Positions 12,850-20,717 of a stretch of DNA of 20,717 nt are shown piece by piece; position 1 is the first letter of the stretch, and each line of letters opens with the position of its first letter. The DNA is from a virus: positions 1 through 20,717 of the IMG/VR virus record IMGVR_UViG_3300009170_000495. The stretch is one strand, 5' to 3'. The position numbers and the translations under genes were made by a program. Under the pieces are notes generated by a model. It was given only the letters and a program-made list of their open reading frames with translations, ran no database searches and had not been told where the DNA came from.

Positions 12850-14364
12850 ATGATTTACAAAGCCAATGACACCTATGAAGCCAGCTTAAGAGCAACTTGG
12901 ACTGCCGATCCAGCTGATACCACAATGTCAGTTACGGCTATTCCAGACAATCTACCAACGATTATTACTTCCAACGCTGGTTCAACCTCAGAGAAGAAAT
13001 TCTCTGTCACAGGTACTTCTGGAGATAGTCCTGCAAATTATGCTCTAACTGGTGTTACTTTACTTTCAGGTGTTTCTGAAAACGTCTCAAAAGATGTCAG
13101 TCTAACCTGTCTTAATCATGAAGAATTTTTTAATCAATATAGCGAGATTGTTAATGAAGATTATGTCAGATTAGTAGATCAAGATGATGACCCTGCCACA
13201 CCTGATGCTGGGAAAACACTCTTTTACTTAAAAGATGGACAAGCCTACACCAAAGATGATGCTGGAGTTGAAACCGTCATTACGACAGATATTGCCACTC
13301 AGGCAGAAGTCGCCACTGGTACTGACAACGCTAAAATAGTTACTCCACTAGCAGCAGCCCCCTATGGGTACTCCTCCCTCTCTCGTCAAGCTATTATCAA
13401 TGGTAACTTTGATGTATCTCAACGTGCTACTACTTTTGTAGCGGGTGCGAATAATGATGATGTTTACACATTAGATAGGTGGAACTTAGTCAGTGACGGA
13501 AATGACGTACTAGACGTATCTCAAGAGGCTGTTACTGATCTTCCTGGGTCTAACTACGCTATTAAACTAGACGTAGAAACTGCCAAACGCGCAGGTATTG
13601 TTCAGTTCCTAGAAGCTAAAGACGCACAGAAGTTCAAGGGTAAAACCGTATCTATCTCTTTTGCTGTCAAGAGTGCAAATATCTCAGCAATTAGAGCAAC
13701 CGTACTCTCGTGGGCTTCAACTGCTGATAGTGTAACCTCAGACATTGTAGGTACTTGGGGAGAGACTCCAACTTGGGCAACTAATTGGGCTGATAACGCC
13801 ACCCCTGCTGATCTAACAGTAACAAGTGGTTGGACTACGGTCAAAGTAGAGGGAATCGCAATTGATGAGGCAACTGTAAACAACCTAGCCCTAGCTATCT
13901 GGCTACCTAATGAAGAAACCATAGGGGATATTGTTTATATAAGTCAGGTGCAAATGAATATGGGTAGTGTCGCCCTTCCCTTTCAACCAAAGAGTTATGA
14001 AGAAGAATCGAGAGCGTGTCGGCGGTATTACCAAAAGGTTGTAACTGGCTCAACTGTACCAGTAGTCATGGGTATGGTCTGGGATACGGCTGGTTCTTTA
14101 AGAGTCTCATTCCCACTTTGTACACCAATGCGACCAGCAATAACACTAAATACTGGATTTTATTTAAGGGCATTAAGAACAACTGCGGTTGGGGCTGGAG
14201 ATATTTTAGATGGTGCTGGTGCTACTCCAGTAAGTGTCGGGGCGACTTACGCTGAGGGGGATTGTATGGTTCAGGTTGTATGGGGAAGTCTAAATACAAC
14301 ATTAATTCCCGCTTTTTGTAATATCGGAGTCTGGGGTAACTTCACTTTCTCAGCAGAACTATGA
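12850..14364 (+). CDS. Tail fibre / adhesin with sugar-binding-type domain
   Basis: A 504-residue protein. Residues ~1-85 are a beta-type domain (YEASLRATWTADPADTTMSV), probably the virion anchor. Residues ~95-165 contain LFYLKDGQAYTKDDAGVET and the linker TQAEVATGTDNAKIVTP, a motif widely seen in phage tail fibres just before the receptor-binding part. RQAIINGNFDVSQRATTF near 178-195 then opens a jelly-roll of the carbohydrate-binding type common in fibres (NGNFDVWQR-like start, YTLDRWNLVSDG, later KTVSISFAVKSAN). ESRACRRYYQKV near 386 begins a C-terminal beta domain, probably the tip. It likely binds a host surface glycan. No depolymerase motif was seen. The last four bases overlap the endolysin start (ATGA). 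Confidence 0.8.
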   Translation: MIYKANDTYEASLRATWTADPADTTMSVTAIPDNLPTIITSNAGSTSEKKFSVTGTSGDSPANYALTGVTLLSGVSENVSKDVSLTCLNHEEFFNQYSEIVNEDYVRLVDQDDDPATPDAGKTLFYLKDGQAYTKDDAGVETVITTDIATQAEVATGTDNAKIVTPLAAAPYGYSSLSRQAIINGNFDVSQRATTFVAGANNDDVYTLDRWNLVSDGNDVLDVSQEAVTDLPGSNYAIKLDVETAKRAGIVQFLEAKDAQKFKGKTVSISFAVKSANISAIRATVLSWASTADSVTSDIVGTWGETPTWATNWADNATPADLTVTSGWTTVKVEGIAIDEATVNNLALAIWLPNEETIGDIVYISQVQMNMGSVALPFQPKSYEEESRACRRYYQKVVTGSTVPVVMGMVWDTAGSLRVSFPLCTPMRPAITLNTGFYLRALRTTAVGAGDILDGAGATPVSVGATYAEGDCMVQVVWGSLNTTLIPAFCNIGVWGNFTFSAEL

Positions 14365-15161: not shown

Positions 15162-15335
15162 ATGCAGGAGTTAATCTCAGCCGTCACACAGATCGGCATC
15201 CTACCAGTAATTATTCTATTTCTCTTGTGGGATTACTCCAAGAAAATGGCATTGTTACAGATTGAGGTAGCCAAGAATACTGTCAAGATCGACACTGTGT
15301 TGATGACCATCGAGAGAATCGAGGATAAGCTATGA
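15162..15335 (+). CDS. 57-aa membrane peptide, holin-like (BhlA/UviB type)
   Basis: A short gene that fills most of the gap after the endolysin. The ATG at 15162 leads to a frame that ends in ATGA with the next start. The peptide begins MQELISAVTQIGILPVIILF, with one membrane segment at residues ~9-24, then Lys-Lys and an amphipathic helix to the end (ALLQIEVAKNTVKIDTVLM). The plan of a short N-terminus, a single membrane helix and a charged helical tail is that of small BhlA/UviB-type holin peptides. Position directly after the CHAP lysin supports a lysis role. There is no good Shine-Dalgarno site, so translation may depend on coupling with the endolysin. It is in the same frame as the endolysin but separated by several stop codons. 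Confidence 0.75.
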   Translation: MQELISAVTQIGILPVIILFLLWDYSKKMALLQIEVAKNTVKIDTVLMTIERIEDKL

Positions 15336-15727
15336 CAGAATTACAAGAATCATTTATCTGGGTCACCACAGGGGCTAACTTCTGGGCTTGGTCTGCTTCA
15401 ATCTTTATTTTTGGTATGGTCTGGGGCTGGAAACAGAATCACGGCTTTTCAGGCTTCAAGCAGTCTTTAATAACCATCACTCCCTTAATCCTGATCTACT
15501 TTTTCTCCTCTCTCAACCGTGTTTACGAGTACGCAAAAATTTCTGGTTACGGGGCACAGAGTTTTAATAATCTAATCTCTATCGTCTTAATCGCTCTACT
15601 TTACTTAATCGGTCTAGTTATTGGTCATAACATTAAAAACAAGGCTATCGAGTCTGCCGTTAAAGAGTCTGGTGTACCAGAACACGAACAGAAAATCTTG
15701 ATAGCTCAACTGAAAGAGGCAATATGA
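15332..15727 (+). CDS. Membrane protein, candidate holin or lysis protein (131 aa)
   Basis: A 131-residue protein with three likely membrane helices at about residues 17-34 (FWAWSASIFIFGMVWGW), 45-61 (LITITPLILIYFFSSL) and 80-99 (NLISIVLIALLYLIGLVIG). Its charged C-terminal tail (IESAVKESGVPEHEQKILIA) probably faces the cytoplasm. Both ends are joined to neighbours by ATGA overlaps, placing it in the lysis operon. Three membrane segments and a charged tail match class I holin topology, although the length is somewhat above average. It could instead be a regulator of the other membrane proteins, such as an antiholin. No sequence family was recognised. Confidence 0.65.
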   Translation: MTELQESFIWVTTGANFWAWSASIFIFGMVWGWKQNHGFSGFKQSLITITPLILIYFFSSLNRVYEYAKISGYGAQSFNNLISIVLIALLYLIGLVIGHNIKNKAIESAVKESGVPEHEQKILIAQLKEAI

Positions 15728-16026
15728 CAGAAAAAAAACCAGATCCAGCAAAACAAGCAGCTGGTTATAAAGGTGAGATTACTAAGATTACTAAGAATAC
15801 AGTTATCTCCCCCCGTAGAGAATTGATCCCAGAGGACTACAAAAAACTGGTAATCAATTTTATTAAGTTTGTAGCACCGTCATTTGCGATCTTCTTTGCT
15901 CAACTAGCACTAGGAGTTGAGCCTAAATTAGCCTTCATGGTGGCTCTATTAGGCTTTTATCAACTACTCTCAGACTGGTTGTCTAAGTGGTCAGGTGAGA
16001 CCACCTACAAAACAACAGAAAAATAA
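15724..16026 (+). CDS. Membrane protein, candidate holin (100 aa)
   Basis: A 100-residue protein with a charged, proline-containing N-terminal tail (~40 residues). Two probable membrane segments follow at ~44-62 (VINFIKFVAPSFAIFFAQLAL) and ~68-86 (KLAFMVALLGFYQLLSDWL), joined by a short turn with Gly-Val-Glu-Pro, and the protein ends in a short charged tail. Two helices joined by a tight loop match class II holin topology. The start is an ATGA overlap with the preceding gene. With the 57-aa and 131-aa proteins it makes three consecutive membrane proteins after the endolysin. Which one forms the lethal pore cannot be decided from sequence. Confidence 0.62.
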   Translation: MTEKKPDPAKQAAGYKGEITKITKNTVISPRRELIPEDYKKLVINFIKFVAPSFAIFFAQLALGVEPKLAFMVALLGFYQLLSDWLSKWSGETTYKTTEK

Positions 16027-16041
16027 TGGTCAGGTCTGCTT

Positions 16042-16362
16042 ATGGGTAATAGAAAAGAACGACAACCCAGAGAGAACACGATAAAAGTTAGAACAAATGC
16101 AAATCAGCAGTCACGTGATGAGACTGCTAGTTTAGAACCAAGGGTGAGCGTAGTAGAAGGTCACGATTCGAGAGGTATGGAGTTCGTAATAGTAGAAGGT
16201 TGGACAAGAAAAGACAACGGATCGAGAAACAACTTAAAAGACTACAGATTTGAGAGAGAAAACTTTGATGATGCGAGGGACTACTTTTGGTCACAAGTAT
16301 TTAACGATACTGAAACACTTTGGAGATTGATTGACTACGCAACAGAAAGAGAATATGAGTGA
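16042..16362 (+). CDS. Charged soluble protein, unknown function (106 aa)
   Basis: A 106-residue hydrophilic protein. The N-terminal ~35 residues are basic and probably disordered (RKERQPRENTIKVRTN). A mixed central part follows (RVSVVEGHDSRGMEFVIVEG), then an acidic, aromatic helical end (FDDARDYFWSQVFNDTETLW). There is no cysteine, membrane segment or known motif. An earlier ATG at 16026 ends after seven codons, so 16042 is the likely start, although no clear ribosome site precedes it. Its last eight bases overlap the collagen-like fibre gene, suggesting coupled expression. A chaperone or assembly factor for that fibre is a guess from position only. Confidence 0.6.
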   Translation: MGNRKERQPRENTIKVRTNANQQSRDETASLEPRVSVVEGHDSRGMEFVIVEGWTRKDNGSRNNLKDYRFERENFDDARDYFWSQVFNDTETLWRLIDYATEREYE

Positions 16363-19060
16363 TTTTACACTTGTACATCTATTAAACCAAAAAACACCCG
16401 TTATTATCACAGGTGGGTATGTGCCTCGCGGTGCTTACGCTGCTGGAACTAATTATGCAGTAGGTGACTCAGTAGACTATAACGGTTCTTCCTATGTGAT
16501 GTATGTAGATGCTGCTGCTGGTACTTTACCAACCGACACTGATTACTGGCAAGTGTTAGCTGAACAAGGTGCGTGTGGGGTCTCGGGTGTCTCAGGAGCA
16601 AGTGGTGCTGATGGAAGTGCTGGTGCGTGTGGTGTATCAGGAGTCTCTGGAGTATCAGGTCTTTCAGGAGATGGAGTATCTGGTGCGTGTGGTGTATCTG
16701 GGGTCTCTGGGGTAGCTGGTGCGTGTGGTGTTTCTGGTGTTTCTGGTGTCTCTGGTTCCGATGGCGATGATGGAGCTTGCGGAGTGTCTGGGGTATCTGG
16801 TGTATCAGGTGCTGATGGAGCCGAGGGGGCTTGTGGTGTCAAAGGAGATACTGGAGCCTGCGGAGTTTCGGGGGTAAGTGGCGCATCTGGCAGTGATGGT
16901 GCCTGTGGGGTATCTGGAGTTTCAGGAGTTTCGGGTGCAGATGGAGCTTGTGGAGTTTCGGGAGTTAGTGGTATAGATGGAGCAACTTCTGGACAATTAT
17001 ATTGGTTTCATAATGATGCCTCAGACATTGTTGGTTATGAGGGGTTCAAACGAATACCTAACGAGTCTGCGGAAGATGATGAAGCAGTCACCTGCACCCT
17101 AGCTGATACTGAATACCTAGTTGATGGCTACGCTACGATGGCTGGAGTTCCTGGTTTATCATCTTTCCCTGTAGGTTTATGGCAATTTCACTGTTATCAC
17201 TATGGGGATGCACCTAGTACTGTTGGTGATTTACGGGCAGTCTATCGTGTTTATATAAGAAAAACAGATACCACAGAAACAGAGATTACTCCTGTTGGGG
17301 GTATTGTTACCGATGAAATAAATGCAACTTCATCAACAGAATATATAACTAAGTATACTTTTTCAACAGCCGTAGCGATGGATTCTACTGACAGAATTAT
17401 TGTTAAAGTGTTCATGAAGAATACATCTGCTGGAAAAATAGGACACTTTGTCTATGAAGGAACAACTAGCGTGTCTTATGCAATTACCTCTTTTGGAATA
17501 GAGGCTGTAGTGGGTGCTTGCGGAGTTTCTGGAGTAAGTGGAGTGTCAGGTGTATCGGGAGTTTCTGGTGTATCTGGGGTCAGTGGAGTTTCAGGAGTGA
17601 GTGGAACAGCAGGAGCGTGTGGTGTTTCGGGTGTGGCTGGTGCTTGTGGGGTGAGTGGTGTCGCTGGGGCTTGTGGGGTTAGCGGAACAGCAGGAACTGA
17701 CGGAGCTTGTGGAGTATCTGGGGTATCGGGAGCTGATTCTACTGTTGCTGGAGCCTGTGGTGTAAGTGGAGTCGCAGGTGCGTGCGGGGTAAGTGGTACT
17801 GCTGGCAGTAACGGTGCGTGTGGTGTGTCAGGTGTCAGTGGTGTGGCTGGTGGTGGAATCAATCCTCTAGGTGCGTATGAAGAATTAGTTAACTATGTTG
17901 TGGGTGATTCTGTTGATTACAACGGTTCATCTTATATCATGTATGTGGATGCACTAGCTGGAACTTTACCGACTGATACAGACTATTGGCAGGTATTAGC
18001 AAACAAAGGTGCTTGTGGTGTTTCTGGAGTAAGCGGAGTTTCTGGTTCAGATGGGGCTAATGGAGCTTGTGGGGTTAGTGGAGTAGCGGGTGCTTGCGGT
18101 GTTAGTGGTGTATCTGGAGTGTCAGGTGTCGCTTCAACAGTGGCAGGTGCCTGCGGAGTTAGCGGAGTAGCGGGAGCTTGTGGCGTTTCTGGAGTAGCGG
18201 GAGCCTGTGGGGTAAGTGGCACAACTGGAGCGGGGGGTGCGTGTGGAGTTTCGGGAGTTTCAGGTGTATCAGGTGCTGATTCTACTGTTGCGGGTGCGTG
18301 TGGGGTATCTGGGGTAGCTGGAGCGTGTGGGGTCAGTGGAATGACAGGAAGTGGTGCTTGTGGTGTAAGTGGAGTTGCAGGTGCCTGTGGAGTCTCTGGG
18401 GTAGCTGGAGCGTGTGGGGTGTCTGGAGTAGCGGGTGCTTGCGGTGTTTCTGGAGTAAGTGGAGTTTCAGGTGTGACAGGAGTGGCTGGGGCGTGTGGTG
18501 TTTCAGGAATATCAGGGGTGAGTGGGATATCTGGTGTGAGTGGTGTATCGGGTACTGCGGGAACAAAGCCAGCAGGACAACTCTTTTTGAGTGCAGCTGG
18601 AATGTGGGCTTCTACTACTGCGGGTTGTGGAACGAACACAAAAAATGAGTTTGCGACCAATGATATCAATATGTATCATTTGCCATTTGATAAAGATGCC
18701 GATGAAAATGCTGAATGTAATGTAGTCATGCCATCTGATTGGGATGCTGGAACGGTTACAGCTACCTTTTACTGGACTGCAATAGCTGGTACGACAGGTA
18801 CAGTTAAATGGTACATCCAAGGTCAATCGTATGCTGATAATGATGCGATAGACCAAGCACTTGGTACAGCTGTAGGTATTGAAGATACGTTTATCACAAC
18901 AGGAGATATGCACATCAGTTCGGCTACGGGCAACGTAACGATTGCTGATGCTACCGCTTCTGAATTGGTACAGTTCAAGATTTACCGAGATATTTCGGAG
19001 GACACCTTTGATGCTGATGCGTGTTTGCTCGGAGTAATGATTAACTACACAAGAACATAA
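16355..19060 (+). CDS. Collagen-like cysteine-rich fibre with duplicated carbohydrate-binding-type module
   Basis: A 901-residue protein. ATG 16355 (MSDFTLVHLL) is chosen over TTG 16331. Order: anchor (1-23); module A (~24-71, YAVGDSVDYNGSSYVMYVDA then TDYWQVLAEQG, like the chitin-binding type 5/12 modules that precede collagen repeats in other fibres); collagen I (~72-212); a beta domain (~213-386); collagen II (~387-501); module B (~503-551, nearly identical to A); collagen III (~552-738); and a C-terminal beta domain (~739-901), probably the receptor-binding and trimerisation tip. The collagen parts are Gly-X-Y triplets dominated by GAC and GVS, with almost no proline and about 31 GAC. The interruption STVA recurs three times. 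I infer a long trimeric host-binding fibre on the virion. The stop overlaps the next start (TAATG). Confidence 0.85.
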   Translation: MSDFTLVHLLNQKTPVIITGGYVPRGAYAAGTNYAVGDSVDYNGSSYVMYVDAAAGTLPTDTDYWQVLAEQGACGVSGVSGASGADGSAGACGVSGVSGVSGLSGDGVSGACGVSGVSGVAGACGVSGVSGVSGSDGDDGACGVSGVSGVSGADGAEGACGVKGDTGACGVSGVSGASGSDGACGVSGVSGVSGADGACGVSGVSGIDGATSGQLYWFHNDASDIVGYEGFKRIPNESAEDDEAVTCTLADTEYLVDGYATMAGVPGLSSFPVGLWQFHCYHYGDAPSTVGDLRAVYRVYIRKTDTTETEITPVGGIVTDEINATSSTEYITKYTFSTAVAMDSTDRIIVKVFMKNTSAGKIGHFVYEGTTSVSYAITSFGIEAVVGACGVSGVSGVSGVSGVSGVSGVSGVSGVSGTAGACGVSGVAGACGVSGVAGACGVSGTAGTDGACGVSGVSGADSTVAGACGVSGVAGACGVSGTAGSNGACGVSGVSGVAGGGINPLGAYEELVNYVVGDSVDYNGSSYIMYVDALAGTLPTDTDYWQVLANKGACGVSGVSGVSGSDGANGACGVSGVAGACGVSGVSGVSGVASTVAGACGVSGVAGACGVSGVAGACGVSGTTGAGGACGVSGVSGVSGADSTVAGACGVSGVAGACGVSGMTGSGACGVSGVAGACGVSGVAGACGVSGVAGACGVSGVSGVSGVTGVAGACGVSGISGVSGISGVSGVSGTAGTKPAGQLFLSAAGMWASTTAGCGTNTKNEFATNDINMYHLPFDKDADENAECNVVMPSDWDAGTVTATFYWTAIAGTTGTVKWYIQGQSYADNDAIDQALGTAVGIEDTFITTGDMHISSATGNVTIADATASELVQFKIYRDISEDTFDADACLLGVMINYTRT
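16568..16992 (+). repeat. Collagen-like repeat block I
   Basis: Triplets (GAC, GVS, GAS, GAD, GSD and others) with nine GAC by my count. One visible phase break occurs around GLS-GD-GVS. Codons for the same triplet vary widely, so the DNA repeat is imperfect although the protein repeat is strong. Confidence 0.9.
17513..17857 (+). repeat. Collagen-like repeat block II
   Basis: Begins with GAC and eight consecutive GVS triplets, then mainly 9-residue units of the form GACGVSGVA or GACGVSGTA. Eight GAC by my count, with one STVA interruption. It separates the central beta domain from the second carbohydrate-binding-type module. Confidence 0.9.
18008..18569 (+). repeat. Collagen-like repeat block III
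   Basis: The longest block, with about fourteen GAC triplets. The 9-residue unit GACGVSGVA is repeated, with breaks at STVA (twice) and at GMTGS. It leads directly into the C-terminal beta domain. Confidence 0.9.
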
Positions 19061-20717
19061 TGGCAGCAACATATACACAACTAGATCCAGCTTCAAAAAA
19101 ATGGACTGGTAGTGGCACAGACGGGGTTTGGGCTGACTACGACCTTTTTACTAACCAAGGCGTGCCTAAAGGTGCGGTAGCTGAAATTATTATCGCTAAT
19201 GTTCAGGCTGGAACAGAAAACATCACAGGTGTTAGAACAGACGGAAGTGCCTTAGATACTAGATATGTTGATATTCACGAAGCGGAAGGTGGTGGGGAAA
19301 CTCACGTCAGAATGTTTGTTACCTGTCACGCCACCACAGGTCTAATTGAAGTATATGGTGAAGATATTTCTGATGCTATTTTTTATGTAGTCGGATACTG
19401 GACTGGAGTTACTTTCACTGAACTAGCAACTACCTTTACAGCTAATGGTTCTGGTAGTTGGGGAGATGAGATATTAGCTGCTGCTACTGCTGGTAAAGTT
19501 TGTCACATCATAGCTGAAAATAACGAAGACAATGTCAATAACTTAATGGGGGTTAGAGCCAACGGTTCAGCCCTTGATAGATATATCAATATCCACGAAC
19601 CAGAAACTGGTGGCTCAAGTGTTGCTGATTTCTTGGTTTTGTCTGATACCAACTACACCATAGAAGTTTATTCAGAAGATGCTACCAATGCTGATTTTGT
19701 CAACATGGGATATTTCGGAACTGAAATGTCTTTTGTGGAAAAGTGGCAGACTATTTCCGTTACCTCAACTGGGTGGCAAGAATACGACTTAACAGCTTAC
19801 CTTGATGCAGATGGTAGACATTGTGACTTTTGGTTAGGTCATGGAGATTCAGCCACAGCAGGAATTACTATCGGTGCAAGAGATGCTGATACTACGATTG
19901 AAAGAAGTTTAGTAGAACACGAAGCGGAAGGAACTGGAGATAACACTGAGTACACTGGTTTTGGGATATCGGTTAAATCAAGTGCCACAGGTATAGTTGA
20001 TCTTAATATCTCTGATGCGGGTTTTGAATACTTTTACCTAGCTGGATATTATGTTCCTAATTTATCACCTACAGTAGCTTTAGGTACTCCGGCAGATGAC
20101 GCTACTATTACCGACACTACTCCAGCTTTAACCTTTACAGGAACAGACACAGAAAGTAATGAAGTGGAATATGAGGTACAGGTGGATACGGTTAATACGT
20201 TTGATAGTCAAGATGTCTTCTCTAAAACAGGTAATAGTTTAACAATAACTGGTGCTAGTTATCCTGCTCTTGCAATGCTTTCTTCTACTAGAGTAGCATA
20301 TATAAATAGTGGAAACGATAAACTTGAAACATATGATTGGAGTGGCACAGACTGGACTAAAACAGGTAATAGTTTAACAATAACTAGTGCTGCTGCTCCT
20401 GCTCTCGCAGCTTTGTCTTCTACTAGAGTAGCATATATAGACTACACCAACGATAAACTTGAAACTTATGACTGGAGTGGCACAGACTGGACTAAAACAG
20501 GTAATAGTTTAACAATAACTGGTGCTGCTGTTCCTGCTCTCGCAGCACTTTCTTCTACCAGAGTAGCATATTTTGAGAGCCAAAACGATAAACTTGAAAC
20601 TTATGACTGGAGTGGCACAGATTGGAGTAAGGTTGGTAATAGTTTAACAATAACTGGTGCTGGTGTTCCTGCTCTTGCAGCACTTTCTTCAACTAGAGTA
20701 GCATTTATAGACTCTAC
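19060..20717 (+). CDS. Multi-domain repeat adhesin or fibre, C-terminus beyond window
   Basis: Opens at the ATG of a TAATG overlap and stays open for 552 codons to the right edge. Residues ~25-330 hold three tandem beta domains of 107-108 residues, seen from GVRTDGSALDTRYVDIHE (57), GVRANGSALDRYINIHE (164) and GARDADTTIERSLVEHE (272), each followed by a partly conserved strand pattern such as IEVYGED and GYW. An Ig/FN3-like linker starts at ~336 (SPTVALGTPADDATITDTTP...) with EYEVQVDTVNTFDS. From ~387 an exact 45-residue repeat begins (GNSLTITGA, PALA, LSSTRVAY, NDKLETYDWSGTDW), probably blades of a beta-propeller. Four copies are visible, the last cut off. Likely a surface-binding virion protein; the propeller assignment is inference. 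Confidence 0.75.
   Translation, partial: MAATYTQLDPASKKWTGSGTDGVWADYDLFTNQGVPKGAVAEIIIANVQAGTENITGVRTDGSALDTRYVDIHEAEGGGETHVRMFVTCHATTGLIEVYGEDISDAIFYVVGYWTGVTFTELATTFTANGSGSWGDEILAAATAGKVCHIIAENNEDNVNNLMGVRANGSALDRYINIHEPETGGSSVADFLVLSDTNYTIEVYSEDATNADFVNMGYFGTEMSFVEKWQTISVTSTGWQEYDLTAYLDADGRHCDFWLGHGDSATAGITIGARDADTTIERSLVEHEAEGTGDNTEYTGFGISVKSSATGIVDLNISDAGFEYFYLAGYYVPNLSPTVALGTPADDATITDTTPALTFTGTDTESNEVEYEVQVDTVNTFDSQDVFSKTGNSLTITGASYPALAMLSSTRVAYINSGNDKLETYDWSGTDWTKTGNSLTITSAAAPALAALSSTRVAYIDYTNDKLETYDWSGTDWTKTGNSLTITGAAVPALAALSSTRVAYFESQNDKLETYDWSGTDWSKVGNSLTITGAGVPALAALSSTRVAFIDS
19228..20045 (+). repeat. Three diverged tandem protein domains (~107 aa)
   Basis: Landmark motifs GVR-x2-GSALD...IHE-x-E start at 19228, 19549 and (as GARDAD...EHEAE) 19873, a period of 321-324 bases. 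They are similar in protein but diverged in DNA, so older than the 135-nt array downstream in the same gene. Confidence 0.7.
20224..20717 (+). repeat. 135-nt tandem repeat (45-aa propeller-like blades)
   Basis: Units begin at 20224, 20359, 20494 and 20629, exactly 135 nt apart, and the array runs past the window. The core GGTAATAGTTTAACAATAAC is identical in all four. Variation clusters at two spots, after ACAATAACT and after GTAGCATAT. Such identity points to recent duplication or gene conversion. Confidence 0.92.

Follow-up and report, generated by a model that had tools for sequence, protein, structure and literature searches.

This locus raises the question of why the rods of a phage tail fibre should carry dozens of cysteines and no proline, and what their thiols could do. 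The window, which is the whole stretch of DNA that was analysed, is an IMG/VR virus record of 20,717 bases and encodes a 901-residue protein on its plus strand (Table 1). Sequence comparisons support this protein as a collagen-like phage tail fibre. It has a PHROG tail fibre match, virion genes are found in the same window, and glycine occurs at every third residue over runs of 7 to 34 triplets, which places it among the collagen-repeat proteins (Pfam PF01391). The ATG start lies within the upstream gene, so that the two share 8 bases. From the N-terminus, a CBM_5_12-like module precedes rod 1 and knob 1, after which come rod 2, the second CBM_5_12-like module, rod 3, and the tip. The first-pass annotation took positions 16568-18569 as the Gly-X-Y stretch. 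The rods do lie inside this interval, but the gene runs from 16355 to 19057 and includes globular parts and several breaks in the rods, for example at GADSTVAGAC.

Table 1. Positions of the fibre gene, its modules, and other genes in the window.
Feature	Position	Strand	Basis
Collagen-like tail fibre gene, 901 aa	16355..19057	+	ATG ORF; Pfam Collagen 3.3e-50; PHROG tail fibre protein 2.4e-82
N-terminal part with CBM_5_12-like module (aa 27-48)	16355..16567	+	Pfam CBM_5_12 5e-6
Rod segment 1 (GAC/GVS; 46 Gly-X-Y triplets, two runs)	16568..16987	+	Triplet count
Knob 1, globular interruption (aa 212-386)	16988..17512	+	Identity to L002 and LR756501 ORF
Rod segment 2 (37 Gly-X-Y triplets, two runs)	17513..17857	+	Triplet count
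CBM_5_12-like module, second copy	17858..18007	+	Repeats N-terminal module; sequence GAYEELVNYVVGDSVDYNGSSYIMYVDALAGTLPTDTDYWQVLA; homologues
Rod segment 3 (59 Gly-X-Y triplets, four runs, and one isolated GAC)	18008..18568	+	Triplet count
C-terminal tip, predicted jelly-roll beta-sandwich	18569..19057	+	AlphaFold, Foldseek, tips of relatives
Major head protein	2882		Pfam/PHROG profile searches
Other tail fibre	12850		Pfam/PHROG profile searches
CHAP endolysin	14361		Pfam/PHROG profile searches
Small genes	15332-16362		Upstream of fibre gene

The window also encodes a large protein of 1,474 residues, and gene 5107 has a weak match to 'phage stabilization protein'. No tblastn match to the head protein was found in cultured phages. 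Shine-Dalgarno-like sites before several genes argue weakly against a Bacteroidota host. The gene at 19060-20715 leaves the window and had no Pfam or PHROG match in profile searches. Its end consists of near-identical repeats of about 46 residues (NSLTITGAxxPALAALSSTRVAYIDxxNDKLETYDWSGTDWTKTG), which perhaps form a beta-propeller-like head. Opposite the rods, minus-strand frames at 16543-16842, 17476-17862, and 17983-18669 are rich in Pro-Thr (TPDTPQAP...). These long frames resemble codon-composition shadows of Gly-X-Y rather than genes.

The rods are built from a small set of triplets, and their cysteines are confined to the Y position. There are 142 Gly-X-Y triplets in eight runs (426 residues), the longest with 34 triplets. 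The commonest types are GVS (63), GAC (30), and GVA (14), and one further GAC lies outside any run of four or more, so that the total is 31. The earlier description of a fibre made mostly of GAC and GVS, with about 31 cysteines in Y, is borne out, and none of the 31 is in X. Within the runs, X is mainly Val (79) or Ala (41), while Y is Ser (68), Cys (30), Ala (19), or Asp (11). The intervals between cysteines are most often nine residues, as was first noticed (11 cases), followed by 18 (five), 12 (four), and 15 (two). Proline was described as essentially absent from the fibre. This holds for the triplets, which have none in X or in Y, but not for the globular parts (aa 1-71, 212-386, 502-551, and 739-901), which are not Gly-X-Y and contain proline. 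The only charged residues in triplets are 2 Lys, 14 Asp, and 1 Glu, and the rods do not have the usual stabilizers of a collagen helix, proline or charge, which are not strictly required.

The composition differs from that of ordinary phage collagens, as the first-pass annotation had said. In the E. coli prophage collagens, proline fills about half of the X positions, charged residues are numerous, and cysteine is missing (PMC3368898). EPclA-D of E. coli resemble the window fibre in being phage fibres with Gly-X-Y rods between other modules, and they are trimeric (PMC3368898), whereas the window rods have 31 Y cysteines, few charges, and no proline.

The GAC array has been kept at the protein level. 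GVS directly follows GAC in 30 of 31 cases, and all 30 copies of GACGVS differ in DNA, with both cysteine codons in use (TGT 23, TGC 7) and mixed codons for Ser, Val, and Gly. Because no two copies are the same, the array is not a young DNA duplication. Tandem-repeat scores across the rods are low to moderate. The 14 other larger ORFs of the phage contain 17 cysteines in total, and seven of them have none.

The cysteine density of the window rod is exceptional among viral Gly-X-Y ORFs, yet it is not unique. An unselected sample was taken from viral contig ORFs on the sole condition of eleven consecutive Gly-X-Y triplets, and its rods (at least 94 ORFs) have 1 cysteine in 7,196 triplets among the matches listed. 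Likewise, at least 70 viral ORFs chosen for GVSGVSGVSGVS, four GVS in a row, have 3 cysteines in 6,243 triplets among the matches listed. The window fibre by comparison has 30 in 142 run triplets. A search of viral contigs with the pattern GACGVSGV found GAC/GVS arrays on five other contigs (L030, L032 with L065, L034 with L059 on the same contig as L002, L047, and L064), which in IMG/VR are, in no particular order, 3300001765_000151, 3300033233_000104, 3300050015_000397, 3300037258_000232, and 3300014656_000239. Their fibres have the same triplet fabric and Y-only cysteines as the window fibre, while their tips differ. Across 84,980 prokaryote genomes, GACGVSGV[SA]G had 36 matches, all of them single and many from GC-rich organisms. 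No Cys-rich Gly-X-Y run accompanies any of them, so they provide no host link.

At least four unrelated types of rod with cysteine in Y occur in viruses. A scan for Y-position cysteines nine residues apart found a GLC/GIQ/GPQ rod (L149), a GLC/GVQ rod (L171), GFC/GYC rods (L156 and L188), a GFC/GAT rod (L167), and a GSC/GQC rod (L179). A differently spaced cysteine pattern, which serves as a chance control only, gave four stray matches. All GAC/GVS fibres, and likewise the GLC, GFC/GYC, and GSC/GQC rods, confine cysteine to Y and have none in X, and none of the six rods from the scan mixes the two positions. The mirror scan for cysteine in X gave one convincing fibre (L381) and a protein of another type (L408) among the matches listed. 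The L381 rod (1-1323) is of the GYS/GFS type with seven GCS triplets, so that its cysteines are in X only with none in Y, a mirror image of the window fibre.

Several other candidates were rejected. Apparent 'Cys collagens' of the GPC type, both in viral contigs and in LR756501, are antisense shadows of GPQ/GPI/GPT collagen ORFs. Pure GSC, GAC, or GPC runs in L142, L153, L235, and L236 are situated opposite other open frames or across them, and most of those frames are longer. The cultured phages S-CRM01, CRP-114, and phi12:1 are among the top collagen matches of the Cys-rich rods, and their own rods have no cysteine.

The alanine codon before cysteine is biased. GCA is used at 0 of the 31 positions in the fibre gene, compared with 21 of 80 alanine codons elsewhere in it. 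Across the GAC family the figures are 12 of 120 before cysteine and 131 of 410 elsewhere, with L032 and L047 as exceptions. Avoidance of an out-of-frame ATG (GCA-TGY after G-rich codons) was rejected as the cause, because other Cys rods do not avoid GCA-TGY.

These distributions bear on the possibility that cysteine is simply a tolerated small residue in Y. On this explanation there is no thiol chemistry, and GACGVS was amplified and kept for good packing. The Y residues are otherwise mostly the small Ser, Ala, Thr, and Asp, the spacing of the cysteines is loose, and the residue before cysteine is Ala in 120 of 121 GxCG triplets of the GAC/GVS family (the five contigs and the window), with varying cysteine codons. 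Against it, the other viral rods listed hardly use cysteine (1 in 7,196 triplets), and dense cysteine in several unrelated rods (GLC, GFC/GYC, GSC/GQC) suggests that the thiols are used. We regard this explanation as rather unlikely, although together with rod modification (below) it is one of the two chief alternatives.

The modules of the window fibre are also found on other rods, which shows that the thiols belong to the rod. The N-terminus is 68% identical to that of the fibre of 3300001765_000151, and the N-terminal module recurs at 66% identity in L003, which has a GPT/GAT rod. Knob 1 is 76-77% identical in the near relative 3300001765_000151 (L002), and it is found at 34% identity in a 2,830-residue ORF of the 735-kb phage LR756501, which has 545 triplets and no rod cysteine. 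The tip is 49-53% identical to the tips of L317, L315, L326, and L274. Fibres of this GVT/GAT/GTS type, including that of LR756501, share the tip or knob 1 and long low-complexity rods with the window fibre, but their rods are Cys-free (GVT/GAT/GPT in the four with related tips). Because the same knobs sit on Cys-free rods, the thiols are dispensable for these knobs. The tip itself has cysteines at residues 758, 788, and 890. The four relatives whose rods are Cys-free have none at those columns, which gives the impression that cysteine was gained throughout the fibre in the lineage of the window.

The relatives suggest a trimer, and the model of the tip suggests a possible host-binding end. 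One GAC/GVS relative has a tip related to the other fibre of the window phage at 12850, and two (3300001765_000151 and L030) end in a C1q domain. The first of these does so despite sharing the N-terminus and knob 1 with the window fibre. C1q domains are trimeric, which supports a parallel trimer for the GAC/GVS rod family, and by analogy the window fibre is probably a parallel trimer as well. The AlphaFold models made here are of monomers. The model of the tip is a jelly roll (pLDDT 81, pTM 0.81), and its Foldseek matches are CBM-like and ephrin-receptor jelly rolls and the tips of viral collagen proteins, including giant-virus collagen-repeat proteins. The tip, with its CBM-like predicted fold, may be the host-binding, receptor-binding end. 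A fold search with knob 1 gave no match, its model being of low confidence (pLDDT 49) and too poor to use, and the PDB match 8zxl reflected compositional bias only.

Genes next to some other Cys-rich rods raise the possibility that Cys and Ser are modification sites for phage glycosyltransferases, possibly through S-glycosylation. In L030 (4115-5167) the gene right after the fibre encodes a glycosyltransferase. An FkbM-methyltransferase/glycosyltransferase comes after the fibre in L032 (2322-8003) and an FkbM-like ORF in L059 (2-535), while glycosyltransferases precede the Cys rods of L156 (6424-10289) and L188 (1086-3937). On the other hand, no glycosyltransferase was seen beside the window gene or near L047, L149, L171, and L179. 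The count of five Cys-rich loci against 17 of 199 Cys-poor ones is biased, since four of the five supplied the sequences for the search profiles. Such genes also often modify host surface glycans instead, so beside Cys-rich rods either rod modification or host glycan remodelling is possible. As the reason for the cysteines, modification seems quite improbable.

The geometry of the canonical triple helix shows that the cysteines of one such rod cannot meet. The first-pass annotation had proposed that each GAC brings three cysteines together, where disulphides or a bound metal would lock the trimer. The high cysteine density in proline-free rods favours this idea, and a phage fibre leaves the reducing cytoplasm on lysis. 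In a disulphide the sulphurs must come to about 2 Å from each other, and thiolates that share a metal must be within about 4.7 Å. Triple helices were built from backbone angles held to 7/2 and 10/3 symmetry, with a distance of 2.9 Å from Gly N to X O. The nearest Y-Y Cβ distances are 7.5 Å (7/2) and 8.6 Å (10/3), and the closest approach of Y-Y sulphurs over all rotamers is 6.1 Å and 7.3 Å, respectively, for an idealized rigid backbone, compared with which a proline-free GVS rod may be looser. Chain register is irrelevant, as all Y-Y pairs were scanned. X-Y pairs do approach each other (5.3 Å between Cβ atoms, 2.3 Å between sulphurs), but the window fibre has no X cysteine as a partner. A 2025 review reached the same result for disulphides with its own model, in which the distance between a pair of Y cysteines is too great for the bond (PMC13138384, Fig. 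8), and it states that cysteines in triple helices mostly bond with other molecules or oxidize (PMC13138384). Because the Y-Y sulphurs are at least 6.1 Å apart, the canonical helix allows no disulphide within the trimer, nor can cysteines of different chains bind one metal there. The distance check that had been suggested at the outset thus went against the proposal: no Y cysteine of the modelled helix has one in a neighbouring chain within bonding distance, and the cysteines face outward. A locked trimer is contradicted for the canonical helix and is very improbable overall. Equally hard to credit is a monomeric polyproline-II bundle closed by disulphides, like the snow-flea antifreeze protein, whose fold has Gly at every third residue together with cysteines, since the 426 residues form long regular runs of up to 34 triplets with no evident turns, match the collagen profile, and have relatives with trimeric C1q tips.

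The best explanation is a trimeric tail fibre with rings of outward rod thiols that are used outside the trimer, a reading that we hold tentatively and with somewhat less than even confidence. The fibre would be a collagen-like receptor-binding device in which globular modules separate three rods, estimated at about 40, 33, and 53 nm (0.286 nm per residue), and the jelly-roll tip comes last. With approximately 31 Y cysteines in each chain, the trimer would expose about 93 outward thiols in rings of three, recurring every 2.6 nm or more along the rod. During synthesis in the cytoplasm the thiols would remain reduced. After leaving it, they could bond to neighbouring fibres, resulting in bundling, or to partner thiols or ligands on a surface. 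Because the cysteines of one canonical rod are out of each other's reach, any bonding would have to involve a partner beyond the trimer, for instance an adjacent fibre or the surface of the host. When two model trimers are placed side by side, good Y-Y disulphide geometry is found in 4-11% of random clash-free packings, with every Y counted as a candidate, compared with none inside a single trimer. The earlier idea of thiols that are reduced in the cytoplasm and disulphide-bonded after lysis fails within the trimer, but in the models it appears geometrically feasible between trimers or to another surface.

Some points weigh against this reading. No thiol-oxidizing or isomerizing enzyme was recognized next to the fibre gene. 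An ordered lateral lattice is ill suited to these rods because the cysteine spacing is not strictly periodic (9, 12, 15, 18). If the habitat is permanently anoxic, the thiols might never oxidize.

The window fibre has partial parallels in animal proteins. C1q, SP-D, and MBL have a collagen stem and a trimeric head, and cysteines join their trimers. In C1q and the collectins most of the linking cysteines sit at the end of the Gly-X-Y region or beyond it, while the window fibre has dozens along the rod. The minicollagens of Hydra likewise combine collagen with cysteine and are hardened by disulphides after assembly, but their cysteines are in separate flanking domains and their rods are proline-rich.

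Collagen-like phage tail fibres are known, but the Cys-rich, proline-free composition was not found described, and searches of the open-access literature turned up no Cys-rich collagen rod from a virus. Known viral and bacterial collagens offset missing hydroxyproline with proline in X and charged or polar residues, whereas rods of the window type have no proline, few charges, and many Y cysteines. The analysis corrects the attractive idea of cysteine rings stapling a trimer. Genetically encoded, thiol-studded collagen rods are also a possible material. A broader proposal, which we consider unlikely as it stands, is that viruses repeatedly evolved rods with dozens of Y thiols that are unable to bond inside one trimer and, once the cell has lysed, cross-link fibres or form covalent bonds with thiols of the host or the environment, so that the fibre would be a redox-triggered adhesive. 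Overall these rods pose a sharp and testable question, namely what purpose thiols serve where bonds within one helix are impossible.
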